DNA of 64,000 nucleotides, from NCBI GenBank assembly GCA_029964075.1, contig CM057148.1:29071916-29135915 (forward strand). The letters run 5' to 3'. How positions within the stretch are numbered: position 1 is the first letter of the stretch; the number at the start of each line of letters is the position of its first letter. Below, piece by piece: positions 1-52,025 of the stretch. The DNA is from Patiria pectinifera. Taxonomy: Eukaryota; Echinodermata; Asteroidea; Valvatida; Asterinidae. A program made the position numbers and the translations under genes. The notes under the pieces are model-generated. The model had not been told where the DNA came from, did not search any database, and saw nothing but the letters and a program-made list of their open reading frames with translations.

Positions 1-180
1 CATTCACAACACAAAAAGATTCCTTCAGCTCTTGCCTGGCAAATTTAAGTACTTTTACTACCACAGACTTTCTCTAAAGGAATGGACACATAACCTCTAA
101 AGCCCGTTAAAAAAAAATATATGCACTCAGTGAAATGAAGTCCTCTCAAAATTAGCAGAAAAACCTTGCATGCTACATAT
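1..180. other. Unassigned AT-rich edge sequence
   Basis: Nothing recognisable is seen before the satellite array begins. The segment is AT-rich and has no open frame or clear repeat word shared with the rest of the window. Confidence 0.4.
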
Positions 181-3100
181 ATTTATCAAATCCGTGTACA
201 AAACCTATGTGAGAAAAAAATACATCTTTAATGTAGAAGTAACCTGACACCTGACGATGTCACGATCACGAATTCTTCTAGGACCATCTGGTTGGTGGTG
301 ATCTAAGTATGTACCAAGTCTGAAGTTGATCAGATTTACGGAGTGCTTAAGTGGAGTGTTTTTAAAACATGTACAAAACCTATGTAGAGAAAATACATAT
401 TTAATGTGCAGAAGTTACTCTGACACCTGACGATGTCAGGATCACGAATTTCTTCTAGGACCATCTGTGGATGGTGGTCTAAGTATGTACCGAGTCTAAA
501 GTCAGATCAGATTTACGCAGCAGGTGCCAAAGTGGAGTGTTTTAAAACGTGTACAAACATATGGGGGAAAATGCATCTTTAAAGTCACGTAACCCGACAC
601 CAGATGACGTCCACCGATCACGAATTTCTTCTAGGACCATTTGTGGTTAGTGATCTAAGTATGTACCAAGTCCGAAGACCATCAGATTTACGACAGTGCC
701 CAAAATGGAATGTTTTAAAACGTGTACAAAACAAATGGGGGAAATGCATCAGCTTAACGTGACGTTACCCGACACCTGATGACGTCATGATCACTAAATT
801 TCTTCTAGGACCATCTGTGGGTGTTGGTCTGAAGTGTGTGCCAAGTCTGAAGTCATCGATGGCATTTACGAAAATGCCAAAGTGTATGGGTAGAAAAGAA
901 AAACGTGTACAAAACATACATGACAAAAGTGGACAAATAAGAAAAAAAGAAAAAAATCTTTAATTCAGAAAACAAGAGCTGTTTCGGTGTGTACATGAAA
1001 ACAGCTAAAATCTAGAAATGTGTTTGTGGACAAACACAAGCTGTTTCGAGATATTTGAAATACTCTGTGCACACGTGACGAACAATCAGTGACCGTCACT
1101 GTAAATGTCATCTATAACAGCACATTATAATACGTACATGTCAAGTTACAACCAAATCGGAACATTATACATGTAGTTCTGTAGATATAGGCCTATACAA
1201 GAATAAAATGCCTCTTTAAGGGACGCGTCATGACATTTGGTGATGACGTCACTTCAATTTTCATCTATAACACGTCCTTGTGAATGTGCATACCAAGTTT
1301 AATCCAATCGGACTTGTACATCCGGGTTATAGCGATTCGAAAAATGCTCATTTAATGTCACGTCATGTGACACATGATGATGTCATATGTTACAAACTCA
1401 CTGGGGACCATCTTAGGCTGCTGGTCTTACTGGTGTCTGACAAGTGTAAAGTCAATCAAATACATGCTATAGAAGTGGAAGTTTGAAGAAAAAACGTGTA
1501 ACAAAAGAAATGTGTGTTAAACCTATGGAGAAAAAGTCTGAAAAAGGAGAAAAAAAGAAAAACTAGAAATGTGTTTGTGGACAAACACAAGCTGTTTCTG
1601 ATATTTGATACCTCCTGTGCATCATGATGAACACTTGATGACGTCATTCAAATGTTATCTATAACACAGCACATTATACATACATATCAAGTTACCCGTC
1701 TGCATTACAGCCAAATCGAACATATAGATCATTTAATAGAAAAATATATGTACCCACTGGCTAATGAACGTCACATGACATGTGGTGACGTCACTTCAAC
1801 TTTCATCTGTAACACATCCTCGTGCGCGCCTATATCAAGTTTCCACCCAATCGGACTTGTACTTAAGAAGTTATAGCGATTTGAAAAATGCACATTTAAT
1901 ATGATGTCACGTGACAAATGATGACGTCGTCGTTACGAAAATCATCAGGACCATCTTTGGCCGCTAGTCTAAGTGTCTGCCAAGTGTAAAGTCAATCAGA
2001 CATATGAAAGTGCATGCCAAAGTGTGTGGTTTGAAGAAACACGTGTACATGTACAAAACCTTTGTTGAAAATGCATCTTTGATGTAATGTAACTTGACAC
2101 CTGATAATGCCATGATCACGAATTTGTTGTAGGAGCATCTGTTGAGTGGTGATTTTAGTATGTACCAAGTCTGAAGTTGATCAGATTTACGAAAGTGCCG
2201 CAAAGTGGAGTGTTTTAAAACGTGTACAAAACATATGAGGAAAGTGCATCTTTAATGTGACAGTAACCCGACACCTGATGACGTGTATAGCCAACGAATT
2301 TCTTCTAGGACCATCTGTGGGTGGTGGTCTAAGTGTGTGCCAAGTCTGAAGTCGATCGCATTTGCAATAAAATGCCAAAGTTGACTGGTAGAAGAAAACG
2401 TGTACAAAACATATGACAAAAGTGGAAAAATAAAAAGAGAAAAAAAAGAAAAAAAGAAAAAAATCTTAACTTAAAACAAGAAGCTGTTTGGTGTGTACAC
2501 TGAAACACAAAAAAATCTTACTTGAAAACAAGAGCTGTTTCGATTGTGTACACGAAACAGCTAAAAAAAAACTAGAAATGTGTTTGTGGACAAACACAAG
2601 CTGTTCGGATATTTGAAATACCTCTGTGCACGTGATGAACACTTGATGAAGTCATTTCAGATGTCATCTGCCAGAGAAAAGCCAATCAGACATATCAAAG
2701 AAAGTATGAATTGAAGAAAAACGTGTACGAAACCTATGGGGAAAAATGCATCTTAATGTGACGTAACCTGACACCTGATGGCGACGTCAAGATCCTGCGG
2801 AGTTTCTTCAAGAGGACCATCTGTGGGTGATGGTCTAAGTGTCGTGTACCAAGTGTAAAGTCGATCGGATGTACTTAAAGTGCCGAAATGGAGCGTTTAA
2901 AAACATGTACAAACCCTATGGGGAAAAAGGACTCATTACTTTGGCGTAACCTGACACTTGATGACGTCACGATCCACAATTTCGTCTAGAACCATCTCTG
3001 GGTGGTGGTCTAAGTATGAATTAAGTTTTAAATCGATCCAGTTTACGAAGATGCCAAACTGGAGTGTTTTAAAACGTACAAAACATATGGGGAAAAATGA

Positions 3101-5778
3101 ATCTTTAATGTGACGTAACCCAACACCTGATGACGTCACGTTCACAAATTCTTATTGGACCATCTGTGGGTGGTGGCTCTAAGTATGTATTCAGTCTGAG
3201 GTCGATGGGATTTATGAAGGTGCCAAGGTGGAGTGTTTTAAAACGTGTACAAACATATAGGGGAAAAATGCATCTTTAATGTGACGTAACCCTTGACACC
3301 TGATGGCGTCACGGTCACGAATTTCTTCTAGGACCATCTGTGGGTGGTGGTCTAAGTATGTATTCAGTCTGAGGTCGATCGGATTTATGAAGGTGCCAAG
3401 GTGGGAGTGTTTTAAAACGTGTACAAAACATATAAGGAAAAATGCATCTTTAATGTGGCCAATAACCCGACACCTGATAATGTCACGGTCACGAATTTCT
3501 TCTAGGACCATCTGTGGGTGGTGGTCTAAGTATGTACCAAGTCTGAAATTGATTGGATTTCAAAAAGTGGCAAAGTGGACTGTCAGAAGAAATGTGTGTT
3601 AAACCTATGGAGAAAAAGTCTGAAAAAGGAGAAGAAAAAAAACTAGAAATGTGTTTGTGGACAAACCCAAGCTGTTTCGGATATTTGAAATACTCTGTGC
3701 ACATGACGAACAATCAGTGATGTCACTGTAAATGTCATCTACATAACAGCACATTATAATACATACATGTACATGTCAAGATAGAACCAAATCGAACATT
3801 ATAGTTCTGTAGATATAGACCTATAAAAGAATAATATGCCCCTTTAAGGGACGTCATATGACATTTGATGATGACGTCACTTCAATTTTCATATATAAAC
3901 CATCCCTGTGAATGTGCATACCATGTTTTAATCCAATTGGACTTGTACTTTCGAAGTTATAGCGATTTGAAGAAATGCTCATTTAATGTCACGTCACGTG
4001 ACACATGATGACGTCATCGTTATGAACTCACTGGGGACCACCTTAGGCTGCTGGTCTTACTAGTGTCTGACAAGTGTAAAGTCAATCTGACATACATGTA
4101 TGGAAGTGAAAAAGTGTATCAGTTCGAAGAAAAATGTGTACAAAACCAATAAGGAAAAAATGCATCTTTCATGTGATGTAACCTGACACCTCATGACGAT
4201 CATGATGGCAGACTTTCTTCTAAGACCATCTGTGGGTGGTAGTCTAACAGTGTGTTCCAAGTCTAACATGGATCGCATTTATGAAAGTGCCAAAGTAGAG
4301 TGTTTTAAAACAGTGTACAAACCCTATGGGGAAAATGCATCTTTAATGTAACGTAACATGAAACCTGATGACGTCACGATGACGACTTTCTTCTATGACC
4401 ATCTATGAGTAGTGGTCTGAAGTGTGTACCAAAGTATAAGTGGTCGATCAGATTTACAGAAAGTGCCAAAGTGGGCGTTTTTAAAACATGTACAAAACCA
4501 GAGGGGAAAATGTGCATCTTTAATGTGAAGTAACGTGACACCTGATGACGTCAACGATCGTGAATTTCTTCTGGGGACCATCTGTGGGAGATGCTCTAAG
4601 TGGCCTGTACTAAGTGTAAGCGTTGATCGGAGTGTACGAAAGTGCGAGAAATGGAGCCGTTTAAAATGTGTACATTAACCTATACAGGAAAGTGTATCTT
4701 TAATGTGACGTAATCTGACATCTCATGACGTCATGGTCACGAATTTCGTCTAGGACCATCTATGGGTAGTGGTCTAAGTATGAATTAAGTTTAAAGTGGA
4801 TCAGAATTTACGAAGATGCCAAACTGGAGTGTTTTAAAACAGTGTACAAAACCTAAGGGGAAAAATGTGCATCTTTAATGTGAAGTAACGTGACACCCTG
4901 ATGACGTCACGATCATGAATTTCTTCTAGGACCATCTGTCAGAGATGCTCTAAGTGTGTGTACTAAGTGTAACGTTGATCGGATGTGCACGAAGTAGCAG
5001 CCGGAAATGGAAGCGTTTTAAAATGTGTACATTAACCCAATAAGGGAAAATAAATCTTCAATGTGACGCGTAACCTGACACCTGATGACGTCACAATCGT
5101 GAATTTCGTTGGCGACCATCTGGTGGTGGTGGTCTAAGTATGAATTAAGTCTGAAGCCCATCAGATGTATGACGGTGCCTAAAGTGGAGTGTTTTAAAAC
5201 GTGTACAAAACATATGGGGAAAATGCATCTTTAATGTGGCGTAACCCGACACCTGATGACGTAACGATCATTTAATTTCTTCTAGGACCATCTGTGGGTG
5301 GTGGTCTAAGTATCAAATAAGTTTAAAGTCGATCGGATTTACTTAAGATGCCAAACTGGAGGGTTTTAAAACGTGTACAAAACAAATGGGGGAAAATGCT
5401 TCTTTAAAGTGATGTAACTTGACACCTGATGACTGTAACGATCACAATTTCTTCTAGGAGCATCTGTTGGTGGTGATTTTAGTATGTACCAAGTCTGAAG
5501 TTGATCAGATTTACGAAAAGTGCCAAAAGTGGAGTGTTTTAAAGCGTGTACAAAACATATGGGGAAAAATAAATTTTTAATGTGACGTAACCTGACACCT
5601 GATGACGTCACGGGTGATCACAAATTTCTTCTAGACACATCTGAGGGTGAAAATTGGTCTAAGTATGTACTCAAGTCTCATGCCGATCGGGTTTACGAAA
5701 GTGCCAAAAGTGGCATGGTAGAAGAAAAACGATGTACAAACCCTATGGAGAAAAGTGGAAAAATAAGAAAAAAAAAAC
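181..5778 (+). repeat. Satellite-rich array 1 (171-bp unit, element family A)
   Basis: A tandem array whose unit is about 171 bp and reads, in order: a GTGTACAAAACCTATGGGG word, GCATCTTTAATGTGACGTAAC, CCTGATGACGTCACGATCAC, TTTCTTCTAGGACCATCTG, GGTGGTCTAAGTATG, GATCGGATTTACGAAAGTGC and GGAGTGTTTTAAAACGTG. Each unit carries one TGACGTCA palindrome. The array is broken up by family A 5' termini (CTAGAAATGTGTTTGTGG...) near 1012, 1563, 2572 and 3643, and by degenerate 3' hairpins near 978-1006, 2484-2514 and 2532-2562. Between the termini and the satellite lies a second body segment (AACAGCACATTATAATA..., CCCCTTTAAGGGACGTCA). Units carry many 1-4 bp indels compared with array 2. Short open frames in it are chance products of the repeat. 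Confidence 0.85.
1012..1562 (+). mobile_element. Family A element copy, 3' hairpin absent
   Basis: Starts with CTAGAAATGTGTTTGTGG, a short inverted repeat (GTGTTTGT / ACAAACAC) and the subterminal word AAGCTGTTTCG. It runs through the body segment with two GACGTCA-type words and ends in an A/G-rich tail just before the next CTAGAAATG start. No terminal hairpin is seen, so the copy appears 3'-truncated or fused head-to-tail with the next one. Confidence 0.5.
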
Positions 5779-6801
5779 TAGAGATCTATGTCTGTTTGCA
5801 GCAGAACATAGGGCTTTTCCGCATTATGATTTTTTTATCAATAATATACCCTGAATATGCATGAACATAAAATCTGTCAAAAGTTAGCCGAAAGAAAAAT
5901 CAGCTAAAAGCGGTCACTGTGGACAGGATTTCACCTTATGCAATCTGATGTATGTGCGTGTGTACAAGGTGTTTGCTTCAAGACAAAAAAGAGTGATCCT
6001 AAAAATAAATTACTGGCAAGAGTCGAAAAGCACTTTGAAAATCGACAATTATTTTTAAATTTTGATGACGTCATCGTGACGATCATTTCGAACTTTGCAT
6101 ACTAGTATGATTAACTACCTACCCACCAAGTTTCATGACAATTGGACCTTTCCTTATATGAGTTTTGAAAAATGGCATTTTGATTCCGTCATGAAATGAA
6201 AGCGTCACACATTTCAAGTTTTGTACGAATAGCTATTACATAACAGACCAAATGCAAAAAAAAGAATTTTGCATTTGCATGTTGCATTCGGGAGAATATG
6301 GCTAAAGGTCAAAAAATAAATATTCATATAAAATCTCAGGATAGCGTCATCATGAAAGCGTCACCTCATTTTTAATCTATAACACTTCCTGGTATAGCTT
6401 TCACATACCAAGTTTCAACCTAATCGGACTTACATTTCTGTAGATATAAGACTTCACAATATGTACGTAAATTTTCAAAAATCAATAAAAAAATAGGTGA
6501 TGGCGTCATCGTGACGTCATAGTCTTGGCTTAATATTTTTATGAAGGTCTTCCTTAGCTGTAACTTTGATGACGATTCCAGATCGCCAAGAAGTTATAAA
6601 AATGGTGGCTTGAAAACGTGTACCAAAGTCAATGGGTTAAAATCCCACAGCAGAAAAACTGCACACCTTTAAATGTCGTGATTTGCCTTTAAACTGAAAC
6701 ATTTTTATAAAAATATTACTTGATATTCTGACTCTTAGGAATATTTTCAATCAAATGGTTAACGAAAAAAATACGATTTCTTTTTCCTTCTCAGTAATTC
6801 T

Positions 6802-7772
6802 AACGGAAGCTTAAAGTGACCATTCAGAGAGTTTCCACGTTTCGCCTTTGATGATTTATCTCAGAAAGATGGATTACTAAGATATTTATGACGTGTTTCC
6901 CTGATATCGTGTCTTGGAAAGACGTCTTTCCCTGGTATTATGGTATTCTCGGAAAGACGTCTCTTTCCTGATATCGTATCTCCGGAAAGACGTGCTTTCC
7001 CTGATATGAGTATCTCCCGGAAAGACGGCTTTCACTGATATTGCATTTCGAAGGACATCTTTTCCTGATATAACATCTCGAAAGAGCGTCTTTTCTCTTA
7101 TATCATCTCGGAAAGAGCGTCTTTCCTTGATATCAGATCTCTGAAAGACGTCTTTCCCTGATATAACATCTCGGAAAGACGTCTTTCTCTGATATCATCT
7201 CAGAAAGACGTCTTTCCCTTGATATGATGTCCGAAAGAGCGTCTTTCCCTGATATCATCTCAGAAAGACGTCTTTCCTTGATATGATATCCCGGAAAGAC
7301 GCCTTTCCCTGGCGTGAAAGACGTCTTTTCTCTCATATCTTATCTCAGAAAGACGTTCCCCTGATATTGTATCTCGAAAAGGCGTCTTTCATCTCGGAAA
7401 AGAGCGTTCTTTCTCTAATATCTTATCTTGAAAAAGACGTTTTCACCTGATATAACATCTTAAAAAGACGTCTTTCTCTCGAGGTATCATCTCGGAAAGA
7501 CGTCTTCATCCTTGATATCGTATGTCGGAAAGAGCGTCTTTCTGAAAACGATATCAGGGAATAGCGTCTTTCGAGATACAATATCAAGGAAAGACGTCTT
7601 TCTGAGATCTACGATATCAGGAGAAGATGTCTTTCGAGATAATTTACATCCGGGAAAGACGTTTTTCCGAGATGCGATATCACGAAAAGACATGTTTTAT
7701 CTCAGTATTCCGTCGTTCGAGATAAATTATCTAGGAAACTTGAAACTCGGATGGTCACTTTAAGCTTCCGTA
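6802..7772. mobile_element. Foldback DNA element with palindromic minisatellite arms
   Basis: The ends are inverted repeats: ACGGAAGCTTAAAGTGACC on the left and GGTCACTTTAAGCTTCCGT on the right. The element is flanked by a 7-bp direct repeat TAATTCT (6795-6801 and 7773-7779), and the other tandem copies read TAATTCT once at the same place (near 8208), so this is a clean insertion with an empty site. The interior holds roughly two dozen copies of a ~30-bp unit built on the perfect palindrome GAAAGACGTCTTTC and a GATATC word. Unit orientation flips near 7530-7550, so the array forms both arms of the foldback. No transposase frame is present. Superfamily is unassigned; a 7-8 bp duplication would suit hAT or similar. 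Confidence 0.75.
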
Positions 7773-9667
7773 TAATTCTCAGCCGAAATGGGTTCAGAAA
7801 CTACTCAGTAAGATATATCAGTGTTGTATAGGAAAGACTTGTGGAAAAAGCTGTGTGCAAAGTCTATGAGAAAAATTAATTATTCATGAATCCATAATAA
7901 ATCACTTGAGAAGATGACGTCATCATGATGTACCGTAGTCTTGGCGCATAATTTTGTATGAGGATCTTCCTTGGCTGTAACTTTGATGACGATTCCAGAT
8001 CGCTAAGTTATGAAAATGGTGGCTTAAAAAAGGGAAAAGTCAATGGAGTTAAAATCCCACAGCAGAAAAACTGCACCTTTAAATGCGTGATTTTCCTTTA
8101 AACTGAAACATTTTATATAAAATATTACTTGCTATTCTAACTCTTGGGAATATTTTCAATCAAATGACAGAAGCGTAAAAGAAACAATTTCTTTTTCCTT
8201 CTCATAGTAATTCTCAGCCGAGAGTTCAGAACTACTCAGTAAGATATATCAGTTTGTATAGGGAAATACTTGTGGAGAAAGCTGTGTACAAAGTCTATGA
8301 GAGAAAAATTAATTATTCATAAATCCATAATAAATCACTTGATGACGTCACCATGACGTCACTCTTCGGGACACATCTTTGGCTATAGGGACTATGCTTA
8401 TGCCAACTTTCAATGATATCTGACAAAGATTAATGCCAAGAAGTGCTATAATACGTCACTGTCTATGCGCATGCAGGAACATAAAATCTGTCAAAGTTAG
8501 CCGAAAATCGGCTAAAACGGTCACTGTGGACAGGATTTGACCTCAGCAACACGGCGCTGCAGGCTGACTGACATACGATGTATGGTGCCTATGTACAACG
8601 TACGTGCATGTACATGTACATTGTCGGACGTCCTGTCCTGTGCATGTTTTGGAAGCAGAGGTATTGTCCAAGGTGAAGTTCTTTAAGCGTGCATGAGGTA
8701 TGTTCGGAGAGTTCGCTATCGCCTGGAAACTTTGGAAATGTTTTAAGACCTACCCTTCAATCAACAATTAAAGTAAAAACAACATATAAACTACTGCCAT
8801 GGTTGATTTTTCCAGAATTTTCAAATAGAAAAGGGTCTTTTTCATTATAACTTCCCGGTCTGATGACGTCATCTCGCCTACAAACTTCGCACACGTCTTA
8901 AGTGAGTCAAGGTCATTATATACACCCAATATTTAGGCCCGATTCCGACAAACTTCGCCACAGACATCTATTCAAAATACATTTTGCTAATTTTCAACCC
9001 GTCGCTAGAGGGCGCTTGAAGATTGCATGACGTCATTGGTAGATGATTTAGAAGAATACTATTGGCCAAGAGACTAACACCCGTTGAAAGCAAGTTCATT
9101 TCTATTACCACTTAAATAATAAGCCACTTCCGGTTTGGGCCTTTTCGACGGAGAAGCAAGGGTCACGTGATTTCACACGCACACTGAAAGAAATAAAGAC
9201 CTTCGACCTACTCTACCACTTCTGCCGGCAACAGAAGTGCTGCGGACGCTGTCACTGTTGATTTCTTATGCATTTTTAAATATTAAAAAGTGTCACAATT
9301 CTAATTGCCTATAAATAAACATACCTGATGACGTCATCATGACGTCATCATTACACAATGTTGTTTGAATTAGGGTCTTTGCTTTAACAAAGTTTGGTGT
9401 AAATGAATTATTGGCAAGAGCAGTCGAAAATGTCGTTTGAAAACCGACAATTTTTTTAAAAAATTTTATTGTACAAAGTCTATGGGAAAAATTAAATATT
9501 CAAAATCTATAATAAATTAGTCGATGACGCCATCATGCACTGTCACTCTTCGGGGCACATCTCTGCTATAAGGACTATGACTATGCTAACTTTGAATGAC
9601 GTATGACAAAGATAAATGTCAAAAGTGGCGTAGAAAAAACGTGTACAAAGTCTATGGGATTTAGGCG

Positions 9668-9890
9668 ACAAAAAGAAGAAGAAGAAGAAGAAGAAGAAAG
9701 AAAAAATGAGAACAAAAAGAAAGAAAAAATGAGAACAAAGAAAGGCTTTTCCGCTTTTTTGGTGAAAAGCCAAAAAGAACAAAAGAAAGGTTTTTCCGCT
9801 TTTAGAAGAAGCCAAGAAGAAGAAGAAGAAGAAACGAAAAAATGAGAACAAGAAAGGCTTTTCCGCTTTTTGCGGAAACAGCCAAAACTA
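9668..9890 (+). repeat. GAA-rich tract with reiterated 3' hairpins of family B
   Basis: A (GAA)n stretch is followed by three hairpins of the same kind. Each starts AAAGG(C/T)TTTTCCGC, has a T-rich loop, and closes with a complement ending in AGCC; the third is GGCTTTTCCGC / GCGGAAACAGCC. They lie just before the next family B start at 9978. The arrangement matches a 3' terminus repeated several times in tandem. Confidence 0.6.
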
Positions 9891-9977
9891 GAAATTGTGG
9901 TTGTGAACGAAATACAAGAGAGCTGTTTCCCAATATTGATTATCTGTTGTACACCGATAGACAGCTAAAAAGAAAAC

Positions 9978-12900
9978 TAGAGATCTATGTCTGCTCTGCA
10001 ACAGAACATAGGGCTTTTCCGCATTATGCGATTTGTTTAATCAATAATATGCCCTGAATATGCATGAACATAAAATTCTGTCGTGTTAGCCGGAAAATCG
10101 GCTGAAACGGTCACTATGGACAGGATTTGACCTCGGCAATACGATGTATGTGCGGTGTACAAGGTCCGACTTGGACAAACGAGTAATGCGGGCTAAATAA
10201 ATTACTGTGCAAAGTACATGTCAAAAGGCACATTGTAATCGACAAATATTTAATTTTTCGATGACGTCATCGAGTGTCACTGTCGAACCTTTGCATACTA
10301 GTATGATTAAGCGTGCGCAGGGCATGACACTGAGTTTCCTTATATGAGTTTTGAAAAATCGTAGGTTTTTGAAATGACGTCATGATGACGTCCATTTTTC
10401 AAGTTTTGTAAATAGCTATTACAGTAACAGACCAAATGCAAAAGAATTCTTGCCATTTTGCATGTTGCGTTCGAGGAGATATGGCTTCAAAAGGTCAAAA
10501 AATATTCATATAAAACTTCCGATGACGTCATCATGACGTCACCTACACCTTTTAAATCTTCGTAACACATCCTGGTCATAGCCATCATATACACCAAGTT
10601 TCCAATTCCCAATCGGACTTACATTTCAGATATAAGACTATCTCATAATATGTACGTAATTTTTCAAAATTTTTCAAAAATTAGGTCGCTGATGAGGGCG
10701 TCATCGTAGATGTCATGGCAGTCAATTGGTAGTTTTTGTACGAGGGTACTATTAGCCAAGAGACTAACACCGTTTGATGACGATTCCAGATCGCCAAGTT
10801 CAATAAAAATATTGGCTTCAAAACGTGTACCGGAAAGTCAATGCGGTTATAAATCCAACAGCACTGAATAACTAAAGCACCTTTAAATCACGTGATTACC
10901 ACTTGCCTTTAGAATGCTGAAACGCGTACGGTTGATTCTATAAAATATTACTTGATATTAAAAGTGCTGACTCTTCAATATTTTCAATCAAATGGCACCG
11001 ATGACGTAAAAATGACAGATTTCTTTTACCTCTCTTCTCATTAGTAATTGCTCGGCCGAAGTTCATGAACTACTGGCAGTAAGAAATTGATCAGTGTTGT
11101 ATAGGAAAATCGACGGTGGAGAAAGCTAAAGGGTACAAAGTCTATAAGAGAACAATTAATTATTCATGAATCCATAATAAATCACTTGATGATGACGTCA
11201 TCATGATGTCAAAAGTCTTCGGCATACATTTTTCAGTATGATGGGTCACAACTATGGCTGTAACTTTAAAGGATCGGATTCCAGATCGCCAAGTTATGCC
11301 AAAAATGGTGGCTTGTAGAATAAAAACGTGTACAAAGTCAATAGGTTAAAAGTCCCACAGCAGAAAAAAACTGCAAAAAAAATGCGTGATTTTCCTTTAA
11401 ACTGAACATTTTTATAAAATATTACTTCTGCTATTGAAATCTTGGGAACAGCTAATCAAGTGACAGGCGTAAAAAAACGATTTCTTTTTCCATCTCATAG
11501 CTGTTCTCAGCCGAAGTTCAGAACTAGCTCAGTAAGATATATCAGTGTTGTATAGGGAAATACTTGTGGAGAAGAGCTGTTCCCAAGTCTATGAGAAAAA
11601 TGAATTATCTGTTGGACCCATAAATCCATAATAAATCACTTGATGACGTCACCATGACGTCACTCTTTGGGACAACATCTTGGCTATAGGGACTATGCTT
11701 ATGCCGCAACTTTCAATGATATCTGAAAGATTAATGCCAAGAGTGCTATAATACGTCCCTGTCTATGCGCTATGCATGAACATAAAATCTACCGTCAAAA
11801 GTTAGCCGGAAAATCGGCTAAAACGGTCACTGTTGACAGGATTTGACCTCGAAGCAACAATGGCGCTGCGCTGCAGGCTGACCGACATACGATGTATGTG
11901 CCTATGTACAACGTACGTAGGCATGGCACATGTACATTGTGACGTCCTGTTATGTGCACTGTTTTGAAGCAGAGGTATTGTCAACGTGAAGTTTTAAGCG
12001 CTGGCGCAGGGTATGTTGAGTTCGCCATCGCCTCGAAACTTTCAATGTTTTAGATCTACCCTTCGACCGACAATTAAAGTAAAACAAATAATAAAAACTG
12101 CCATGGTTGATTTGCAGTACAGGAATTTTCTAAATGGAAAAAAGGGTCTTTTTCATTATAACTTCCGGTCTGATGGACGTCATGTGCCTTAAAACTTCGC
12201 ACACGTCTTAAGTGGGTCAAGGTCATGATATACACCAATATTTAGGCGATTCCGGACAAACTTCGCCACAGACATTCTATTCAAAATACATTTTTGCTAA
12301 TTTTCAACCTTGTCGCCAGAGGGCGCTCTGAAGATTGCGGTATGACGTCATCGGTAGATGATTTGGAAGAATACTTCATTGGCCAAGAGACTCAACACCG
12401 CTGAAAGCAAAGTCTGCTATCTATTACCACTTTCAACATGATAAGCCACTTCCGGCGGCCTTTTTCGACCGGAAGGCAAGGGTCACGTGATTTCACGCAC
12501 ACTGAATGAAGAAGACCTTAACTCATTCTCTACCACTTTGCCGGCAACAAAATGTTGCGGACGCGTACACACGGTTGATTTCTTTATGCATTTTTGAATA
12601 TTAAAAGTGTCACAATTCTAATTGCCTTATAAATAACACCGGATGACGTCATCATGACGTCATCATTACACAGTGTTGTTTGAAATTAGGGTCTTTTGCT
12701 TGGACAAAGATTGCGTAAATGAATTACTGGCGAAAGAGTCAAAATGCCCTTGCAAATCGACACTTTTTTAAAATTTCTGTGTACAAAGTCTATAGGGAAA
12801 AATTAAATATTCAAAATCTATAATAAATTACGTCGATGACGTCACCATGACGTCAAGTCTTCGGGACACATCTTTGCTGATAGGCACAACTATGCTTATG

Positions 12901-13126
12901 CTTAACTTTGAATCGATGTATGACAAAGATTAATTCGCCAAAAGTGGCTGGGCAGAATAAAACGTGTACACAAAGTCTATGGGGTTTAGCGACAAGTGAA
13001 GCCAAAAAAAAAAAAAAAGAAAACTAGAAATTGAGAATAAAACAAAGGCTTTTCCGCAACTTTGCGGAAAGCCAAAAAATCTGTAACGAAAACAATTGAG
13101 CTGTTGACACCGAAACAGCTGAAAAC
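9978..13126 (+). repeat. 3.2-kb tandem unit, copy 2 (family B)
   Basis: Second tandem copy, 3,149 bp from start word to start word. The landmarks recur in order: CTAGAGATCTATGTCTG at 9978, TTTGCATACTAGTATGATTA near 10295, a deletion/rearrangement near 10740, CCACAGCAGAAAA near 11350, CTCAGTAAGATATATCAGTG near 11530, GGCGCTGCAGGCTGACCGACATAC-type sequence near 11870, AGAGGGCGC near 12318, CACTTCCGG near 12448, and the 3' hairpin GGCTTTTCCGCAAC / TTGCGGAAAGCC at 13047-13073. Many short indels separate it from copies 1 and 3. Confidence 0.75.
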
Positions 13127-15190
13127 TAGAGGTCTATGTCTGTTTGCAACAGAAATTGATAGGGCTTTCCGCATTATGATTTTTTTTTAATCAATAATAT
13201 GCCCTGAATATCACTATGAACATACCTGTCAAAGTTAGGCCGGAAAATCGGCTAAAACGGTCACTGTGGACAGGATTTTGACCTCGGCAATATGATATGC
13301 GCTGCGCGCGGCTGTTTACTGGTACGATATGCTTTTTGGACAACGCCAATGTACGTGACTAAATGCACATGTACATTGTGCAAAAGACGTCCTGCACTGT
13401 TGAAAATCGACAATTTTTTTTGTCAACCTGATGAAATTTTATCGTGACGTCACTGTCGGACTTTGCAAACTAGCACGAAGCTTTCCCACCAATGTGTCAT
13501 GACCTAATTGATCCTTCTGAGTATAGAGTTTTGAAAATCGCAAAAACTTTTGAATGACGTCATAATGACTGCACATTTTTGATTTTGTGCGAATACCTAT
13601 TATTCTAACAGGCCAAATGCAAAAGAATTTTGCATTTTGCATGTTGCGTTCGGGGAGATGACGCTTAAGGAACCTAAAATCAAAATATTTATATAAAATT
13701 CAGGATCAACGTCATCATGATGTCACACTCATTTTTTAATCTATAAACACATCCTGGTATAGCCACGGATACATGTACCAATAATTTTCAACCCAATCGG
13801 ACTTACATTTCTGTAGATATAAAACTTCACAATATGCACGTAAATGATTTCAAGAATCAATATCAAAATTAGGCAGATGCACCGTCATCGTGACGTTCAT
13901 AGTCTTATGTACCACTTTTTGAGCGCGACTCCGGGTTTCCTTGCTGTAACCTTTGATCGACGATTCCAGATCACGCAGTTATAAAACACTGGTGAATTGA
14001 AAAGTGTACAAAGTACCACGGGTTAAAATCCCACAGCAGAATGCTGCGACGCGTACGGTTGATTTGCCTTTAAACTGAATTATTTTTTAAATATTAAATA
14101 GTGTCACAATTGATATTCTGACTTGGGAAACATTTTCCGGAATGAAATGGCATAACGTCATCATTACACAATACGATTTCTAAGGGTCTTTCCTTCTCAC
14201 AGTACCTTGGCCGTAAATTCAGAACTACCAGTAAGATATATCAGTGTTGTATAGGGAAAGACATTGTGGAGAAAGCTGTGTACAAAGTCTATGAGAAATT
14301 TACTTATTCATGAATCCAATAATGACTCACTTGATGATGACGTCATCATGACGTCAAAAGTCTTGGCATACATTTTTCAGTATGAGTCTTCCTTGCTGTA
14401 ACTTTGATGACGATTCCAGATCGCCGATTTATAAATAATTGCCAAAGTGACTTGGTAGAATAAAACGTGTACAAGTCAATAAGTTAAAAGTCCCACAGCA
14501 GAAAAACTGCACCTTAAACTAGACGTGACGTTTTGCCTTTGTAAACTGAAAACAAACATGAAATGTTACTTGCTATTCTAACTCTTGGGAATATTTTCAA
14601 TGAAGATTGACGGCCATCGGCGGCTATCGAAACATGGGGATTTCCAAGTTTTTGCCTTCTCATACTAATTCTCGGCCGATTTAGTGTCAGAACTACTCAG
14701 TAAGATATATCAGTGTTGTAGGAAGTCCTCTTTTCTTTACGTTGTGGAGAAAAAGTTGTGCGTACAAAGTCTATGAGAAAACATAATGGGTGATTCCATA
14801 AATTTAGGGTCCATAATAAATCCACTTGATGACGCTCATGACGTTACATCTGACTTCGAGACACATCTTGGCTAATTCAGGGACTATGTCTCTGATGCCA
14901 ACTGTCAGTGATGTTCGACAAAGACTACGCCAAAGTGTATAATATGTGTGAAACTTCATGTTCAGATTATCTGACACTTGAATGTGTCCAAAGAATTTCG
15001 CATGTCTATGCGCATGCATGAACATAAAATCTGTCGTGTTAGCCGAAAATCTGCTAAAACGGTCACTGTGGACAGGATTTATGGACATACACGTGCTCAG
15101 GTTGACTGATAGCGGGTCGAGGCTAAAGATTTAGGACAACGTACGCGCACATGTACATGTAGCACATTGTGACGTCTTGGTGTCTATGTT
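13127..15190 (+). repeat. 3.2-kb tandem unit, copy 3 (partial)
   Basis: Third copy, starting CTAGAGGTCTATGTCTG. It follows the same landmark order as far as TTAGCCGAAAATCTGCTAA near 15038 and the ACATGTACATGTAG stretch near 15150, then stops matching near 15190. The right third (AGAGGGCGC and CACTTCCGG part) is missing. Confidence 0.7.
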
Positions 15191-15746
15191 TTGAAAGCAG
15201 AGGTATGTGTTCAACCTGAAGTTGGGAGTCAAAATACCAATAGTACTGAGCAGACGAGAAGGGAATTAAATTTAATGACGTCTTTGAAAGAATTCCATAT
15301 ACGGACTCCAGTTATTTTCCTAGATATGACTTGCAAAGCACCAAAAGTTGTAATTCTGACGAAGAAACGGAAATTTAGGAGGGGGAAAAATCAAGATTTT
15401 CTTTAAAAATACTTTGACGTTTCCTGTCACGGCCCATAGAGGTGGAGGCTTAAATGGAATTCTTTCCAGTGTTCCTAACGTGGCGCACTTGAACAAATCC
15501 CCAAAAATCCCACATTAACATTGAAGAAATTCTTTAAAGTTGTTAACTTCTGATAAATCATGATTATCCCAACTCACAATCCCAACTCACATACCCAACT
15601 ACAAGTTTGTCACATTACGTAAGCCGCATGAATCTGTGGCATCATGACTGTACCGCGTAGAATGCGCGGGGACCTGGCCAAGCTGTAAGGCGGCAAGGCA
15701 TGCACACGCACGCTGTCAAAATGTCAAGTTGGATAACGGTCGAGTT
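15191..15746. other. Unassigned single-copy segment
   Basis: No repeat word from the neighbouring arrays, no convincing coding signal and no RNA gene is seen. There is a small cluster of CCCAACTCAC words near 15570-15600. The density of small indels seen to the left ends around here. Confidence 0.4.
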
Positions 15747-15972
15747 GTCCCACCCCATGGGTACAAATCCTATGGAGAAAACAACGTGCACAATGTCTAT
15801 GGAGAAAAGAACGTGTACAAACCCTATGGAGAAAAGAACGTGTACAAACCCTATGGAGAAAAGAACGTGTACAAACCCTATGGAGAAAAGAACGTGTACA
15901 AAACCTATGGAGAAAAGAACGTGTACAAACCCTATGGAGAAAAGAACGTGTACAAACCCTATGGGGCAAAAT
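15747..15972 (+). repeat. 27-bp minisatellite derived from the 171-bp satellite
   Basis: About eight copies of a 27-bp unit containing GTGTACAAACCCTATGGAG and AAAAGAAC. The last copy runs straight into a normal satellite unit (CCCTATGGGGCAAAATGCATC). The unit is therefore a local amplification of one stretch of the larger satellite. Because 27 is divisible by 3, several reading frames stay open; they are not genes. Confidence 0.9.
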
Positions 15973-16410
15973 GCATCTTTGATGTGACGTAACTTGACTC
16001 TTGATGACGTCACGATCACGAATTTCGTCTGACCATCTGTGGGTGGTGGTTTAAGTATGAATTAAGTTTAAAGTCGATCGGATTTACGAAGATGCCAAAC
16101 TGGAGTGTTTTAAAACGTGTACAAAACATATGGGCAAAAATACATCTTGAATGTGACGTAACCTGGCACCTGATGACGTCACGATCACAAATTTCTTCTA
16201 GGACCATCTGTGGGTGGTGGTCTAAGTATATACCAAGTCTGAAATCAATCGGATTTTAAAAAGTGGCAAAGTCGATTGGTGGAAGAAACGTGTGTTAAAC
16301 CTATGGAGAAAAAGTCTGAAAAAGGAGAAGAAAAAAAAAAAAGAAAAAAAAAAATCTTAACGAAAACAAGAGCTGTTTCGGTGTGTCACCGAAACAGCTA
16401 AAAAGAAAAA

Positions 16411-18918
16411 CTAGAAATGTGTTTGTGGACAAACACAAGCTGTTTCGGATATTTGAAATTCTCTGAGCACGGGATGAACAATCATTGACGTCACTATAAA
16501 TGTCATCTTTAACAGCACATTATAATATGTACATTTCAAGTTACAACCAAATCAAACACTTTAGTTCTGTAGATATAGACCTATAAAGAATAAAATGCCC
16601 CTTTAAGGGACTTCACATGACATTTGATGATGATGTCACTTCAATTTCCATCTAAAACACATTCGTGTGAATATTCATACCAAGTTTTAACCCAATCAGA
16701 CTTGTACTCCGAAGTTCAGTTTGAAGAAAAACGTGCACAAAACCAATAGGGAAACAATGCATCTTTAATGCGATGTTACCTGACACGACATGACGCCACG
16801 ATGACGAATTTCGTCTAGGACCATCTATGGGAAGTGGTCTAATTGTGTACCAAGTATAAAGTCAATCACGTTTACGAAAGTGCCAAAGTGGAGCGTTTTA
16901 AAACGTGTACAAAACCTATGGGGAAAATGTGCATCTTTAATGTGAAGTAACGTGACATCTGATGACGTCACAATCACGAATTTCTTCAAGGACCATCTGT
17001 GGGTGATGGTCTAAGTGTGTACTAAGTGTAACATCGATCAGATTTACGAAAGTGCCGAAATGGAGCGTTTTAAAACGTGTACAAACACTATGGGGAAAAA
17101 TGCACCTTTAATGTGACGTAACCTGACACTTGATGACGTCACGATCACGAATTTCGTCTAGGACCATCTGTGGGTGGTGGTCTATGTATAAATTAAGTTT
17201 CAAGTTGATCTGATTGACAAAAATGCCAATCTGGAGTGTTTTAAAACGTGTACAAAACATATGGGGAAAAATGCATCTTTACTGTGACGTAACCTGACAC
17301 GTGATGACGTCACGATCACGAATATCTTCGAGGACCATCTGTGGGTGGTGGTCTAAGTATGTACCAAGTCTGAAATCAATCGGATTTAAAAAAGTGGCAA
17401 AGTGGACTGGTGGAAGAAACGTGTGTTAAACCTATGGAGAAAAAGTCTGAAAAAGGAGAAAAAAAAAAACTAGAAATGTGTTTGTTGACAAACACAAGCT
17501 GTTTCGGATATTTGAAATACTCTGTGCACATGATGAACACTTGATGAAGTCACTTCGAATGTCATCTGCCAAGTGAAAAGCCAATCAGACATATAGTGCC
17601 AAAGTATGATTTGAAGAAAAACGTGTACAAACCCTATGGGGAAAAATCCATCTTTAATGTGAAGTAACGTTACACCTGATGATGTCACGATCACGAATTT
17701 CTTCTAGGAACATCTGTAGGTGGTAGTCTAAGTGTGTACCAAGTCTAACGTCGATCGGATTTACGAAAGTGCCAAAGTAGAATGTTTTAAAACGTGTACA
17801 AACCCTATGGGGAAAATGCATCTTTAATGTGACGTTACCCAACACCTGATGACGTCACGATCACAAATTTCTTCTAGGACCGTCTGTGGGTGGTAGTCTA
17901 AGTGTGTACTAATTCTGACGTCGATCGGATTTACAAAAGTGCCAAAGTGGAGTGTTTTATAACGTGTAGAAACCCTATGGGGAAAAATACATCTTTAATG
18001 TGACGTAACCCAGCACCAGATGACGTCAGGATCACAAATTTCTTCTTGAACTATCTGTGGGTGGTGGTCTAAGTATGTATCAAGTCTGAGGTCGATCGGA
18101 TTTACGAAGAGGCCAAAGTGGAGTGTTTAAAAACGTGTACAAAACATATGGGGAAAAATGCATCTTTAATGTGACGTAACCCGACACCTGATGACGTCAC
18201 GGTCACGAATTTCTTCAAGGACCATCTGTGGGTAGTGGTCTAAGTGTGTACCAAGTGTAACGTCGATCGGATTTACGAAAGTGCCAAAATAGAGCGTTTT
18301 AAAACGTGTACAAAACATATGGGGAAAATTGCATCTTTAATGTGACGTAACCCGACACCTGATGACGTCACGGTCTCGAATTTCTTCAAGGACCATCTGT
18401 GGGTGGTAGTCTAAGTGTGTACTAATTCTGATGTCGATCGGATTTACAAAAGTGCCAAAATGGAGCGTTTTAAAACGTGTACAAACCCTATGGGGCAAAA
18501 TGCATCTTTAATGTAACGTAACCTGACTCTTGATGACGTCACGATCACGAATTTCGTCTAGGACCATCTGTCAGTGGTGGTCTAAGCATGAATTAAGTTT
18601 AAAGTTGATCAGATTTACGAAGATGTCAAACTTGAGTGTTTTAAAACGTGTACAAAACATATGGGCAAAAATACATCTTTAATGTGACGTAACCTGACAC
18701 CTGATGACGTCACGATCACAAATTTCTTCTAGGACCATCTGTGGGTGGTGGTCTAAGTATGTACCAAGTCTGAAATCAATCGGATTTAAAAAAGTGGCAA
18801 AGTGGATTGGTGGAAGAAACGTGTGTTAAACCTATGGAGAAAAAGTCTGAAAAAGAAGAAAAAAAAAAAAAAATCTTAACGAAAACAAGAGCTGTTTCGG
18901 TGTGTCACCGAAACAGCT
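16411..18918 (+). mobile_element. Two head-to-tail family A elements with expanded satellite core
   Basis: The first copy starts at 16411 and runs to the A/G-rich tail near 17469 without a hairpin. The second starts at 17470 and ends in the 3' hairpin at 18890-18918. Both have the 5' hairpin, the subterminal word AAGCTGTTTCGG and several 171-bp units. The plan resembles Helentron-associated non-autonomous elements (DINE-1/HINE type), which have subterminal inverted repeats, a hairpin near the 3' end and central tandem repeats. That family assignment is inference. Confidence 0.5.
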
Positions 18919-18924
18919 AAAAAA

Positions 18925-20522
18925 CTAGAAATGTGTTTGTGGACAAACACAAGCTGTTTCGGATATTTGAAATACTCTGTGCACGTGATGAACACTTGAT
19001 GAAGTCATTTCGAATGTCATCTGCCAAGTGAAAAGTCAATCAGACATATAGTGCCAAAGTATGATTTGAAGAAAAACGTGTACAAACCCTATGGGGAAAA
19101 ATCCATCTTTAATGTGAAGTAACCTTACACCTGATGATGTCACGATCACGAAATTCTTCTAGGACCATCTGTAGGTGGTAGTCTAAGTGTGTACCAAGTC
19201 TAACGTCGATCGGATTTACAAAAGTGCCAAAGTGGAGTGTTTTATAACGTGTAGAAACCCTATGGGGAAAAATCCATCTTTAATGTGACGTAACCCAACA
19301 CCTGATGACGTCACGATCCCAAATTTCTTCTAGGACCGTCTGTGGGTGGTAGTCTAAGTGTGTACTAATTCTGACATCGATCGGATTTACAAAAGTGCCA
19401 AAGTGGAGTGTTTTATAACGTGTAGAAACCCTATGGGGAAAAATGCATCTTTAATGTAACGTAACCCACCACCAGATGACGTCAGGATCACAAATTTCTT
19501 CTAGAACCATCTGTGGGTGGTGGTCTAAGTATGTATCAAGTCTGAGGTCGATCGGATTTACGAAGAGGCCAAAGTGGAGTGTTTAAAAAACGTGTACAAA
19601 ACATATGGGGAAAATTGCATCTTTAATGTGACGTAACCAGACACCTGATGACGTCACGGTCACGAATTTCTTCAAGGACCATCTGTGGGTGGTGGTCTAA
19701 GTGTGTACCAAGTGTAACGTCGATCGGATTTATGAAAGTGCCAAAATGGAGCGTTTTAAAACGTGTACAAACCCTATGGGGCAAAATGCATCTTTAATGT
19801 GACGTAACCTGACTCTTGATGACGTCACGATCACGAATTTCGTCTAGGATCATCTGTCGGTGGTGGTCTAAGTATGAATTAAGTTTAAAGTTGATCAGAT
19901 TTACGAAGATGTCAAACTGGAGTGTTTTAAAACGTGTACAAAACATATGGGCAAAAATACATCTTTAATGTGACGTAACCTGACACCTGATGACGTCACG
20001 ATCACAAATTTCTTCTAGGACCATCTGTGGGTGGTGGTCTAAGTATGTACCAAGTCTGAAATCAATCGGATTTAAAAAAGTGGCAAAGTGGATTGGTGGA
20101 AGAAACGTGTGTTAAACCTACGGAGAAAAAGTCTGAAAAAGGAGAAGAAAAAAAAGAAAAAAAAAAAAAAGAAAAAAGAAAAAAAAAATCTTAACGAAAA
20201 CAAGAGCTGTTTCGGTGTGTCACCGAAACAGCTAAAAAAAAAAAAAAAAAAAATCTTAACGAAAACAAGAGCTGTTTCGGTGTGTCACCGAAACAGCTAA
20301 AAAAACAAAAAAAAGAAAACAGAAAAAAAAAAATCTTAACGAAAACAAGAGCTGTTTCGGTGTGTCACCGAAATAGCTAAAAAAAGAAAAAAGAAAAAAA
20401 AAATCTTAACGAAAACAAGAGCTGTTTCGGTGTGTCACCGAAACAGCTAAAAACAAAAAAAAAAGAAAAAAAAAAATCTTAACGAAAACAAGAGCTGTTT
20501 CGGTGTGTACACCGAAACAGCT
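18925..20522 (+). mobile_element. Family A element ending in five reiterated 3' hairpins
   Basis: Starts CTAGAAATGTGTTTGTGG and contains about six satellite units. From about 20180 it ends in five repeats of the 3' terminal module AAATCTTAACGAAAACAAG plus hairpin, at 20205-20233, 20270-20298, 20350-20378, 20420-20448 and 20493-20522. The last hairpin is a perfect inverted repeat with arms AGCTGTTTCGGTGT and ACACCGAAACAGCT. Modules are about 65-80 bp apart, separated by A-rich spacers. Confidence 0.6.
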
Positions 20523-36061: not shown

Positions 36062-37290
36062 TCATGTTCGTGTTCGCTCCAGTCTGGAGTACGTCACGTA
36101 GGTAGCAGGATGTGAATGTCGTGGCAGACTTCCAGCATGCTGCTTGAGAGATCTCTGAGATAGGGACCCCCTAAAAATGCCCAGGACGCCGCTACAGCGC
36201 GTCGTCATGGGCTCGGACAAGGCCTTGGACAGAAGCGTCCCTTTTGGATGGCCAGTCCGCATTAGCGAATTTGATAGCAGCTACTACCCAACGCGCAATG
36301 GTGTCCCTTGAGGCGGGGCCATGTGGCTTTATGGTTGTAATAAAGAGCTGCATGCATTTATCCCTGAGTGACTTGGTGCGTGCCAGATACCATTTTAGAT
36401 GCGCACCGGGCACCATAATTTGTCTGAGGGAATAGAGGAGGTCGACTCTATTTTTGGGAGGAAAATATCAGGAGGGCTGAAACTTGCCGTCTGATTTTTC
36501 GTCAGGAAGGACGCCTTTGGGATCAGGCGAACCCCACCTGGTTCCCAGCGGATATGTCCCGAATCTAAAGTCAGCGCATGGATCTCGCTGCTCCGCCTAG
36601 CGGTAGCCGCTGCGAGCAGGAAGGCCAACTTTATAGATACATTAATGAGGGTGCTTGGCCCAAGGGCTCGTATGGAGCCTTGGCCAACATGTTCAGGACC
36701 TGACCTAGATCCCAGGATGGGACCAGTTTCCGGATTTTAGGTCTCTCGTTGAACGTTCTCCGAAGTAGGTTAGTGATTGCAACATTAGAGGAGATAGATG
36801 AGCCATCAGCGAAGCCCTTGTGAACCGCTGCTATGGCTGATCGATAATTTCGTATCGTTCCTACTGACAAATTGGCTCTGAACAATGACAGTAGGAATTC
36901 TGAACAATGGCTTAAAGAAGCACAGAGCGGATCCACAGCCTGTTCTGTGCACCACCTACTATAATGTCGTAGTCGACTGTCATAGATTTGTCGTGTTGAG
37001 AGACGACGTCCCTTTGCGGCCAGAGTTGCAGCGTCTTCAGAAAGACCTGCTGCTCGGTAGGCACACTTGACAGTGGCCAGCACGCTAAGTGGAGATCTCC
37101 CGGAGATGGGTGTCGGAACCGGGACTGAGATTGAACGAGTAGGTCGTGACGATCTGGGAGGATTAGAGGGGAGCCCACTAGGAGCCTCACCAGTCGCGGA
37201 AACCAGGGCTGACGCGGCCAAAAGGGGGCGATCAGCAGGATCTTGCACCTGTCTCTCTCCAGTTTCCCGATGACCTTTGTAAGGATTGAG
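36062..37290 (-). pseudogene. DIRS tyrosine recombinase region (broken)
   Basis: The conceptual peptides include RRLSTRQIYDSRLRHYSRWC and VGTIRNYRSAIAAVHKGF, typical of the N-terminal core-binding part of DIRS/phage-type tyrosine recombinases. Nearer the left end come AFLLAAATARRSSEIHAL and the HLKWYLARTKS and ANADWPSKRDA regions typical of the catalytic part. In this family the recombinase integrates the circular DNA copy. The region is interrupted, with about two breaks, and is recorded as a fossil. It follows the RT/RNase H frame, as in other DIRS elements. Confidence 0.75.
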
Positions 37291-51079: not shown

Positions 51080-52025
51080 ATAGGGTAAACTGGGGTAAAA
51101 ACGCCCATGGGGTAAAAACGCCCACTTGACTTGTTTCCACTGCTATTAAAAAATGATAAGATGAATTGTTCAATGGAATATATTTTTAATAAGCACAATG
51201 TAGATAAAAACTAATAATAACTAGAAATGTGTTTGTGGACAAACACAAGCTGTTTCGGATATTTGAAATACTCTGTGCACGTGATGAACAATCAGTGACG
51301 TCACTATAAATGTCATCTATAACAGCACATTATACTATGCACATGTCAAGTCACAACCAAATCAAACATTTTAGTTCTGTAGATAGACCTAAAAAAGAAT
51401 AAAATGCCCCTTTAAGGGACTTCACATGACACTTGATGATGATGTCAATTCAATTTCCAACTATAACACATAGAAAAATGCATCTTTAATGTGACGTTAC
51501 CTGACACCTGATGACATCACGATCACAAATTTCTTCTAGTATGTACCAAGTCTGAAATCAATCGGATTTAAAAAAAAGTGGCAAAGTGGACTGGTAGAAG
51601 AAACGTGTGTGAAACCTATGGAGAAAAAGTCTGAAAAAGGAGGAAAAAAATAAGAACCAAGAAAAAAAAAATCTTAACGAAAACAAGAGCTGTTTCGGTG
51701 TGTACATCGAAACAGCTAAAAAGAATTAAATTCATTAACATATTTGAAGGGTACGTAAGTGCTGTTGAAAAAAATATATAAAAAAAAGTTTTGAAAAATG
51801 GCCGTCAAAGTTTTAGCCTATATATTGCTTAAAATTATTTTATAAAAAAAGTATCTTATATTTTTATTATTCTTTAGTTGATATATATATTAAGAAGGGT
51901 TAATAATATAATTATAAATGATTACAATATTAAAATCTGTTTTAATATTTGCTTAATAATGTTTTTTGAGTGGGCGTTTTTACCCTGGGCAAAATCAGGG
52001 GTCTCGGGGTAAAAACGCCCAGTAC
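51080..52025. repeat. Motif island: GGGGTAAAAACGCCC, interrupted by a family A element
   Basis: The left edge has AGGGTAAACTGGGGTAAAAA then CGCCC, and a second GGGGTAAAAACGCCC (51081-51123). The right edge has GGGCGTTTTTACCC (51973) and, inverted, GGGGTAAAAACGCCC (52007). A family A element (51221-51719) is nested in it. The 27-bp left end is repeated exactly, inverted, at 63792-63818. Confidence 0.6.
51221..51719 (+). mobile_element. Solitary complete family A element (~0.5 kb)
   Basis: The only copy outside the arrays. It starts CTAGAAATGTGTTTGTGG with the GTGTTTGT/ACAAACAC inverted repeat and AAGCTGTTTCGG. It then carries the CCCCTTTAAGGGAC body segment and a single partial 171-bp unit (GCATCTTTAATGTGACG). 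It ends with ATCTTAACGAAAACAAG and the hairpin at 51688-51717 (AGCTGTTTCGGTGTGTAC / CGAAACAGCT). Unrelated sequence on both sides defines the boundaries. No protein is encoded. Confidence 0.75.

Follow-up and report, generated by a model that had tools for sequence, protein, structure and literature searches.

Family-specific ends and type-matched nesting in probable Helitron2/Helentron-type elements of the sea star Patiria pectinifera

Two repeat families and their ends

We analyzed a 64,000-nucleotide stretch of the genome of the sea star Patiria pectinifera (GenBank assembly GCA_029964075.1, contig CM057148.1, positions 29,071,916 to 29,135,915 of the forward strand), referred to below as the window, in which two families of repeats, A and B, recur. 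On the minus strand, their order of features is a T-run, a hairpin composed of a word and its complement, a core, the word again, a second hairpin and CTAG-3΄; the core of family A consists of tandem repeats of ~171 bp. The repeats are, with high probability, short non-autonomous rolling-circle elements of the Helitron2/Helentron kind (HINE/DINE-like) without coding capacity. The words that match across the CTAG end and the hairpin represent the two ends of each element, and their covariation is that of a recognized inverted repeat. The families are new and their kind is already known; the main new detail is that copies are nested inside one another as type-matched brackets.

An earlier note on this DNA, made from the sequence alone, had claimed that a 5΄ subterminal word and a 3΄ hairpin change together between the two families and had suggested a rolling-circle-like (Helentron/HINE-like) anatomy. 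Both points were borne out: A and B have different words, each matching inside its own family, and both ends of one element carry the same word. With up to one mismatch, the A-type word (AGCTGTTTCGG) had 28 matches in the window compared with 0.68 expected from shuffles, and the B-type word (GGCTTTTCCGC) had 8 compared with 0.50. The ends and hairpins are listed in Table 1, in which the solitary family A copy at 51221 lies beyond the range of the earlier note. The use of CTAGAA and CTAGAG as diagnostic of the two families, also made in that note, did not hold, as some A-type ends (in loci L002, L009 and L028) carry CTAGAG. The word match is also imperfect in several copies within window positions 1–15,000, which have small changes of word or arm (e.g. 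1563, 2572 and 13126). By eye, positions 1–15000 of the window contain many small changes relative to related copies, unlike positions 16000–20500; assembly error or older copies are possible explanations.

When compared with shuffled sequences, the 5΄ word-hairpins folded strongly in family A (z = –7.0 for the copy at 51688 and –8.8 for that at 16371) and moderately in family B (z = –3.5 at 13047), and the second, 3΄ hairpin folded moderately in family A (z = –3.2). The second hairpin of family B, which is imperfect and was folded in a single copy (5778), was no better than shuffles (z = –0.89, with 41 of 200 shuffles as good). Having a hairpin at each end is a Helitron2 trait.

We further analyzed the pairing of the 5΄ hairpin arms using 83 distinct hairpin strings (22 from the first list of the AGCT-type and GGCT-type searches and 61 from the second), which are related to each other and in many cases decayed. 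Arm positions 5, 8, 9, 10 and 11 were free in the search patterns, and the outer positions were fixed by the patterns and hence uninformative. Watson–Crick pairs were present at these five positions in 80, 66, 54, 51 and 69 of the 83 strings, respectively, with two or three pair types at every position: for example, G-C (48) and T-A (32) at position 5, T-A (49) and C-G (17) at position 8, and G-C (43), C-G (23) and A-T (3) at position 11. Paired changes are thus present in the arms, as counted in 83 related strings with no shuffle control. A cleaner count from 44 distinct strings, 22 of them hand-picked, was dropped in favor of the full count. Compensated changes were known earlier in two related elements, Helitron-1N1_CQu and Helitron-1N2_CQu (PMC3627910; published papers are cited by accession, and what is said of each concerns the portions of it drawn on here).

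We then use c for a CTAG end (CTAG, hairpin and word) and h for a hairpin of word and complement, both in the orientation of the earlier note. Across the genome (613.5 Mb, 1,020 contigs), the 26-mer of the A c-end was found at 723+703 places (1,426; up to two mismatches, sub-families with the same palindrome included) and the 34-mer of the B c-end at 566+649 places (1,215; up to three mismatches), with 0 matches for the reversed controls. The exact AGCT-type hairpin pattern occurred 808+803 times and the exact GGCT-type pattern 350+388 times, with controls again at 0. Further families were recognized: the exact c pattern of family C had 409 places (208+201; c seen in L030, h in L026) and that of family E 6+12 (c seen in L016, h in L012). 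The first c and h examples of C and E came from different loci, and the word match in those examples is one of sequence; for C, co-occurrence of c and h was then examined by position (see below). A sub-family, A-II, with the A palindrome and a two-base spacer, had its pattern at 279+310 places, which include some E-type ends. Family D was seen as a c-end only (L017), and the A-like words in L004, L005, L006 and L021 had no hairpin matched to them. A word common to c and h was found in families A, B, C and E. Freely mixed words and hairpins, named in the earlier note as evidence that would speak against it, did not appear for A and B: the A palindrome with the B word and the B palindrome with the A word had 0 and 0 matches in the 613.5 Mb with up to two mismatches.

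In the B core, a ~31-bp tandem repeat (GACGTCTTTCCCTGATATC...) occupies window positions 6890–7700 and is shared by other B copies. Hairpins with an arm ending in ATGACGTCA recur in the cores (e.g. 5860–13000), with 51 in the window and occurrences in 29 loci of L001–L038; this arm ending is presumably similar to a CREB/ATF site.

Table 1. Positions of element ends, hairpins and core repeats in the window, with 5΄ and 3΄ assigned according to the orientation considered most likely
Feature	Position	Strand	Remark
Solitary family A element, clean reference copy	51221..51721	-	both ends present; 5΄ end near 51721, CTAG 3΄ end 51221; right limit assumes that four A of the A-run belong to the element
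5΄ hairpin of solitary A copy (word and complement)	51688..51717	-	word search; fold
3΄ end of solitary A copy: 3΄ word, second hairpin, ATTTCTAG terminus	51221..51258	-	
Family A 3΄ end (CTAG end)	1012..1049	-	
Family A 3΄ end (CTAG end)	1563..1600	-	
Two tandem family A 5΄ hairpin modules, left one degenerate	2464..2569	-	word search and repeat 2457-2569; hairpins at 2533 and, degenerate, ~2480
Family A 3΄ end, word short by one base	2572..2608	-	
Family A 3΄ end immediately after A-tract, no preceding hairpin	3643..3680	-	
Family B 3΄ end	5778..5822	-	
Three family B 5΄ hairpins in a run, imperfect	9744..9883	-	at 9744, 9789 and 9856
Family C-type 3΄ end, degenerate	9888..9945	-	intact C end known in L030
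Family B 3΄ end	9977..10022	-	
Family B 5΄ hairpin	13047..13073	-	word search and fold
Family A 5΄ hairpin, left arm cut short, adjoins B hairpin	13099..13120	-	
Family B 3΄ end	13126..13175	-	
Family A 5΄ hairpin	16371..16399	-	word search; fold
Family A 3΄ end	16411..16448	-	
Family A 3΄ end after A-tract, no preceding hairpin	17470..17507	-	
Family A 5΄ hairpin	18890..18918	-	
Family A 3΄ end	18925..18962	-	
Core tandem repeats, ~171 bp	17618..18806	.	also within 2718-5713, 16728-18806, 19073-20092
Five family A 5΄ hairpin modules in a run, A-rich tracts between	20188..20522	-	consecutive hairpins at 20205-20522

Orientation, insertion site and Rep genes

Because the order of the features fits the published Helitron2/Helentron termini only that way round, the word-hairpin is most likely the 5΄ end and CTAG the 3΄ end, which places the elements on the minus strand of the window. 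In Helitron2, the 5΄ inverted repeat lies 0–2 bp from the end and forms the 5΄ hairpin, and the 3΄ inverted repeat immediately precedes the 3΄ hairpin, at about 20–30 bp from the 3΄ end (Bao and Jurka, PMC3627910). Helentrons, HINEs and DINE-1 share a similar plan with TT targets (Thomas et al., PMC4067079). In the elements described here, the word forms the 5΄ hairpin, and its distance from the end hinges on the T counted as part of the element (about 4 by empty-site length). The 3΄ word, the complement of the 5΄ word, precedes the 3΄ hairpin; counted from the terminus, it starts at 27 nt in A, 28 nt in A-II and E, 29 nt in C and 34 nt in B. The assignment of CTAG to the 5΄ end in the earlier note is not supported by this comparison with published termini, which is not a proof. 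That note had also taken a hairpin at both ends as a feature recalling single-strand transposons; such hairpins belong to the published description of Helitron2 (PMC3627910) and represent no departure from it.

If the repeats nevertheless began 5΄ with CTAG and ended 3΄ with the word-hairpin, they would be a variant rolling-circle element with Rep running from CTAG toward the hairpin. Rep genes within 25 kb of the listed c-ends mostly run in that direction (38 same versus 8 opposite row pairs), which tells against our orientation. These 46 row pairs were obtained from 22 Rep matches, are clustered and are not independent, and for family A the comparison used 71 of the 100 listed rows. Moreover, the Rep-to-CTAG distances spread from 8 kb to the 25-kb cut-off, with no Rep placed inside these elements. 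Because Helitron2 elements with a reversed Rep have been published (PMC3627910), the bias in direction is not decisive, and the sequence of T-run and hairpin followed by word, hairpin and CTAG matches published descriptions solely with CTAG as the 3΄ end. We accordingly consider the reversed orientation unlikely.

The insertion site was examined from the flanks. Among 69 distinct c-ends, A precedes CTAG in 68 (this count excludes ends that lack an exact CTAG, and L008, which overlaps L007), and AA follows 38 of 39 hairpins in the orientation of the earlier note, as judged by the A-rich left side; the remaining hairpin lies at the end of its locus. For the solitary copy at 51221, the flanks joined without the element and the A-run matched 40 places at 92–94% identity (40 scored of 103 candidates), and all 40 matches crossed the join (query positions 1–235 in 38, 1–221 in one and 3–235 in one). 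The target was longer than the query by one base in 34 matches and by two to four bases in 3, equal in 3 and shorter in 0. From these lengths, we take the additional base to be the A trimmed from an A|A target, although the base may lie elsewhere. No target duplication is visible, because a duplication would have shortened the target relative to the query. The flanks thus fit insertion between two T without visible target duplication, with one site tested well by match lengths, and it is chiefly this site that displays the T-rich target and lack of target duplication of Helitron2. A second empty-site comparison (L003) was weak, as it yielded two half-matches at the locus itself and paralogues across the join at merely 72–82% identity. 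A DDE transposon with other boundaries was set aside, given that the boundaries used for the 51221 site show no visible target duplication. This solitary copy lies within another interspersed repeat (window 51100–51837) that has at least 40 genomic copies.

Genes for a possible mobilizing enzyme were found elsewhere in the genome, with at least 148 matches to Rep (PF14214; 150 of 162 candidates scored). At least 86 of the 148 lie on contig C7, 85 of these below 23 Mb. For one Rep type, matches to DUF6570 and Rep lie in L064. The related copy L060 is followed downstream by L070, which matched PIF1 helicase and Exo_endo_phos, and the upstream frame L069 matched PHD, Herpes_teg_N and OTU. Taken from two copies of one Rep type, the predicted Rep, PIF1 helicase and Exo_endo_phos domains make up the Helentron domain set. 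The endonuclease domain was seen in the frame of L070, an element without a link to A or B. The exact A and B words were absent from 30 Rep loci (3.5–3.6 kb each; the C and E words were not searched there) and from the flanks of two long Rep frames (L069–L072, where L069 begins with 320 N; C and E were again not searched).

These observations also bear on a single-strand transposon of the IS200/IS605 type, in which hairpins at both ends and the lack of a visible target duplication would be equally expected. The inverted-repeat word is placed relative to the two hairpins as in Helitron2, and Helitron-type Rep genes are abundant, both of which make such an origin highly improbable.

Matching ends and nested arrays

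We compared the two ends of neighboring elements on contig C1 and contig C2 up to 17.36 Mb (47 Mb), using clusters defined by a 6-kb gap (n = 72). Among the exact matches listed, there were 44 A, 28 C, 8 B and 3 E c-ends and 65 A, 35 C, 25 B and 24 E hairpins. When a c-end was directly followed by a hairpin, the two were of the same type in 35 of 40 pairs (AA 22, CC 12, BB 1), compared with a shuffle mean of 17.5, and 0 of 20,000 shuffles reached 35. For A and C alone, all 34 of 34 pairs matched (Fisher's test, 1.8e-9), and after collapsing by cluster, 15 AA, 6 CC and 0 mixed cases remained; A and C hairpins share one common search pattern. The end-match result rests on A and C, and because copies within one array are related, the pairing and nesting statistics overstate independence.

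Several clusters resembled nested brackets, such as cC cA hA hC, or cA cA cC cC hC hA hA, or four cA followed by four hA. In mixed clusters with a 6-kb gap (n = 11), 43 non-crossing same-type pairs could be drawn out of an upper bound of 44, compared with a shuffle mean of 33.7, and 0 of 400 shuffles reached 43; the corresponding values were 41 of 42 at a 4-kb gap and 46 of 46 at 8 kb. This type-matched nesting supports self-insertion into the A/T tract between core and hairpin. Type-matched nesting across families was not found in the open-licence literature searched, which is not proof of its absence. A composite in which B lies inside A, A[B], with outer A-type ends, is whole at L009+L079 and is represented by its CTAG side at L028. 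The L009 and L028 copies are 97.9% identical over 1,035 aligned columns, and their outer flanks do not align. The idea that this composite moved as a unit was dropped, as B may instead have inserted twice, independently, into the same A-tract (the tract lengths differ).

Without any nested insertion, the arrays could alternatively have formed if A/T tracts recombined unequally or slipped against one another, or if the rolling-circle process read through 3΄ ends. This alternative would concern the arrays only and is compatible with the elements being of the Helitron2/Helentron kind. The hairpin module and the module of core and CTAG end are both flanked by A/T tracts and both occur in runs, tandem Helitron arrays have been attributed to bypassed termination (PMC4067079), and hairpin runs mix families. 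On the other hand, the C A / A C and A A C C / C A A arrangements are expected from insertion and exceed shuffles, and balanced runs of four CTAG-ends followed by four hairpins are likewise expected from insertion. We regard this alternative as possible but rather doubtful.

Several findings weigh against our interpretation of matched, nested Helitron2/Helentron-type elements. Five of the 40 next-neighbor pairs were mismatched (C-B 2, B-E 1, B-A 1 and B-C 1); family B gave just 1 matching pair of 4 and family E none, with no neighboring c-E/h-E pair within the stretch examined. In the B-A mismatch (L009), the B hairpin was missed by the search pattern and an A hairpin lies outside it. Hairpins outnumber c-ends in mixed clusters (83 versus 52 with the 6-kb gap, both from exact-match lists), and families are mixed in 16 of 58 neighboring hairpin pairs within runs (<200 bp). 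Because of this excess and these mixed runs, simple nesting is not the whole story. To account for Fusarium elements that bear several 5΄ termini, self-insertion has been invoked, with later transposition running from an outer 5΄ end to the first 3΄ end (PMC5148889); such a mechanism could yield the mixed 5΄ runs here and would oppose strict end matching. In addition, arm pairing at positions 9 and 10 is far from perfect. Finally, no Rep gene proved to lie between A, B, C or E ends when the positions of the at least 148 Rep matches were compared with the listed CTAG-ends and the flanks of the two long frames were inspected.

The window also contains features apart from these families. Further tandem arrays, with units of 113, 152 and 69 bp, lie at 57092–57812 and 61177–61708. 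A retroelement on the minus strand at 36631–41115 has, in overlapping frames, a reverse transcriptase, an RNase H-like match just under the cut-off and a weak tyrosine-recombinase-like (Phage_int_SAM_1) match; we take its arrangement to be DIRS/Ngaro-like.

Known systems and possible significance

Two-hairpin Helitrons and central satellite repeats have already been published, as have tandem arrays and self-insertion (PMC3627910, PMC4067079, PMC7492417 and PMC5148889). The closest system is Helitron2 (PMC3627910), with which the present elements share a hairpin at each end, short asymmetric terminal inverted repeats (8–15 bp in Helitron2) of which the 5΄ copy forms the 5΄ hairpin and the 3΄ copy lies just before the 3΄ hairpin, insertion after T-tracts with most copies lacking target duplication, and compensated changes. 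Unlike Helitron2 as described there, they end 3΄ in CTAG, have a satellite-like core in family A, belong to several mutually nested families and are linked to no Rep partner. With Helentron, HINE and DINE-1 (Thomas et al. 2014, PMC4067079), they share subterminal inverted repeats, a 3΄ stem-loop, the TT target, central tandem repeats in some cases, high copy number and lack of coding capacity; however, the 3΄ word lies 27–34 nt from the 3΄ end here, compared with 38–60 bp in the mite families described in that paper. Rep–helicase–endonuclease Helentrons exist in the same genome, and no common end was seen with them.

Cg_HINE of Crassostrea gigas (PMC7492417) likewise represents non-autonomous Helentrons with satellite-like central repeats (many of 140–180 bp) and element-specific ends, whereas nested arrays and runs of 5΄ hairpins, as seen here, found no mention in the portions of that paper drawn on. 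Composite FoHeli elements of Fusarium oxysporum (PMC5148889) resemble the present arrays in having several 5΄ termini with one 3΄ terminus, explained by self-insertion; in contrast to what those portions describe, there are thousands of ends here, from several interleaved families, with type-matched nesting measured. Helitron1 (5΄ TC, 3΄ CTRR, A/T insertion and no 5΄ hairpin) does not fit, since the elements have a 5΄ hairpin and flanks consistent with T/T, although CTAG agrees with CTRR. In a literature search on echinoderms, amphioxus and hemichordates, no Helentron paper was among the matches listed.

A scheme for the origin of the arrays can be proposed. A Rep/helicase, possibly with an endonuclease, encoded elsewhere would nick at the 5΄ T and peel one strand as far as the 3΄ end, and the peeled strand would be inserted into T-tracts. 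Because each element has a T-tract just inside its 5΄ hairpin, new copies would land inside older elements and split the hairpin from the core, and repeated landing in this tract may produce nested arrays. The match between the 5΄ and 3΄ words, acting through DNA pairing or a bound protein, would mark which 3΄ end closes which 5΄ end. Selection maintaining such 5΄/3΄ pairing, suggested in the earlier note, is plausible and was already proposed in 2013 (PMC3627910). A stronger version, in which the word match is a true address code such that the machinery passes foreign 3΄ ends and halts at the 3΄ end bearing its own word, is a tentative idea that we think is probably incorrect.

If the address code were true, nested arrays would be a natural record of end choices, and the A[B] composite, whose outer ends are A-type, would be one example. 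This one genome contains several interleaved families with thousands of ends, and counting which ends were used together could test the 2013 proposal that pairing of the 5΄ and 3΄ repeats sets the rolling-circle end point. The arrays also suggest one route by which satellite-like arrays grow.

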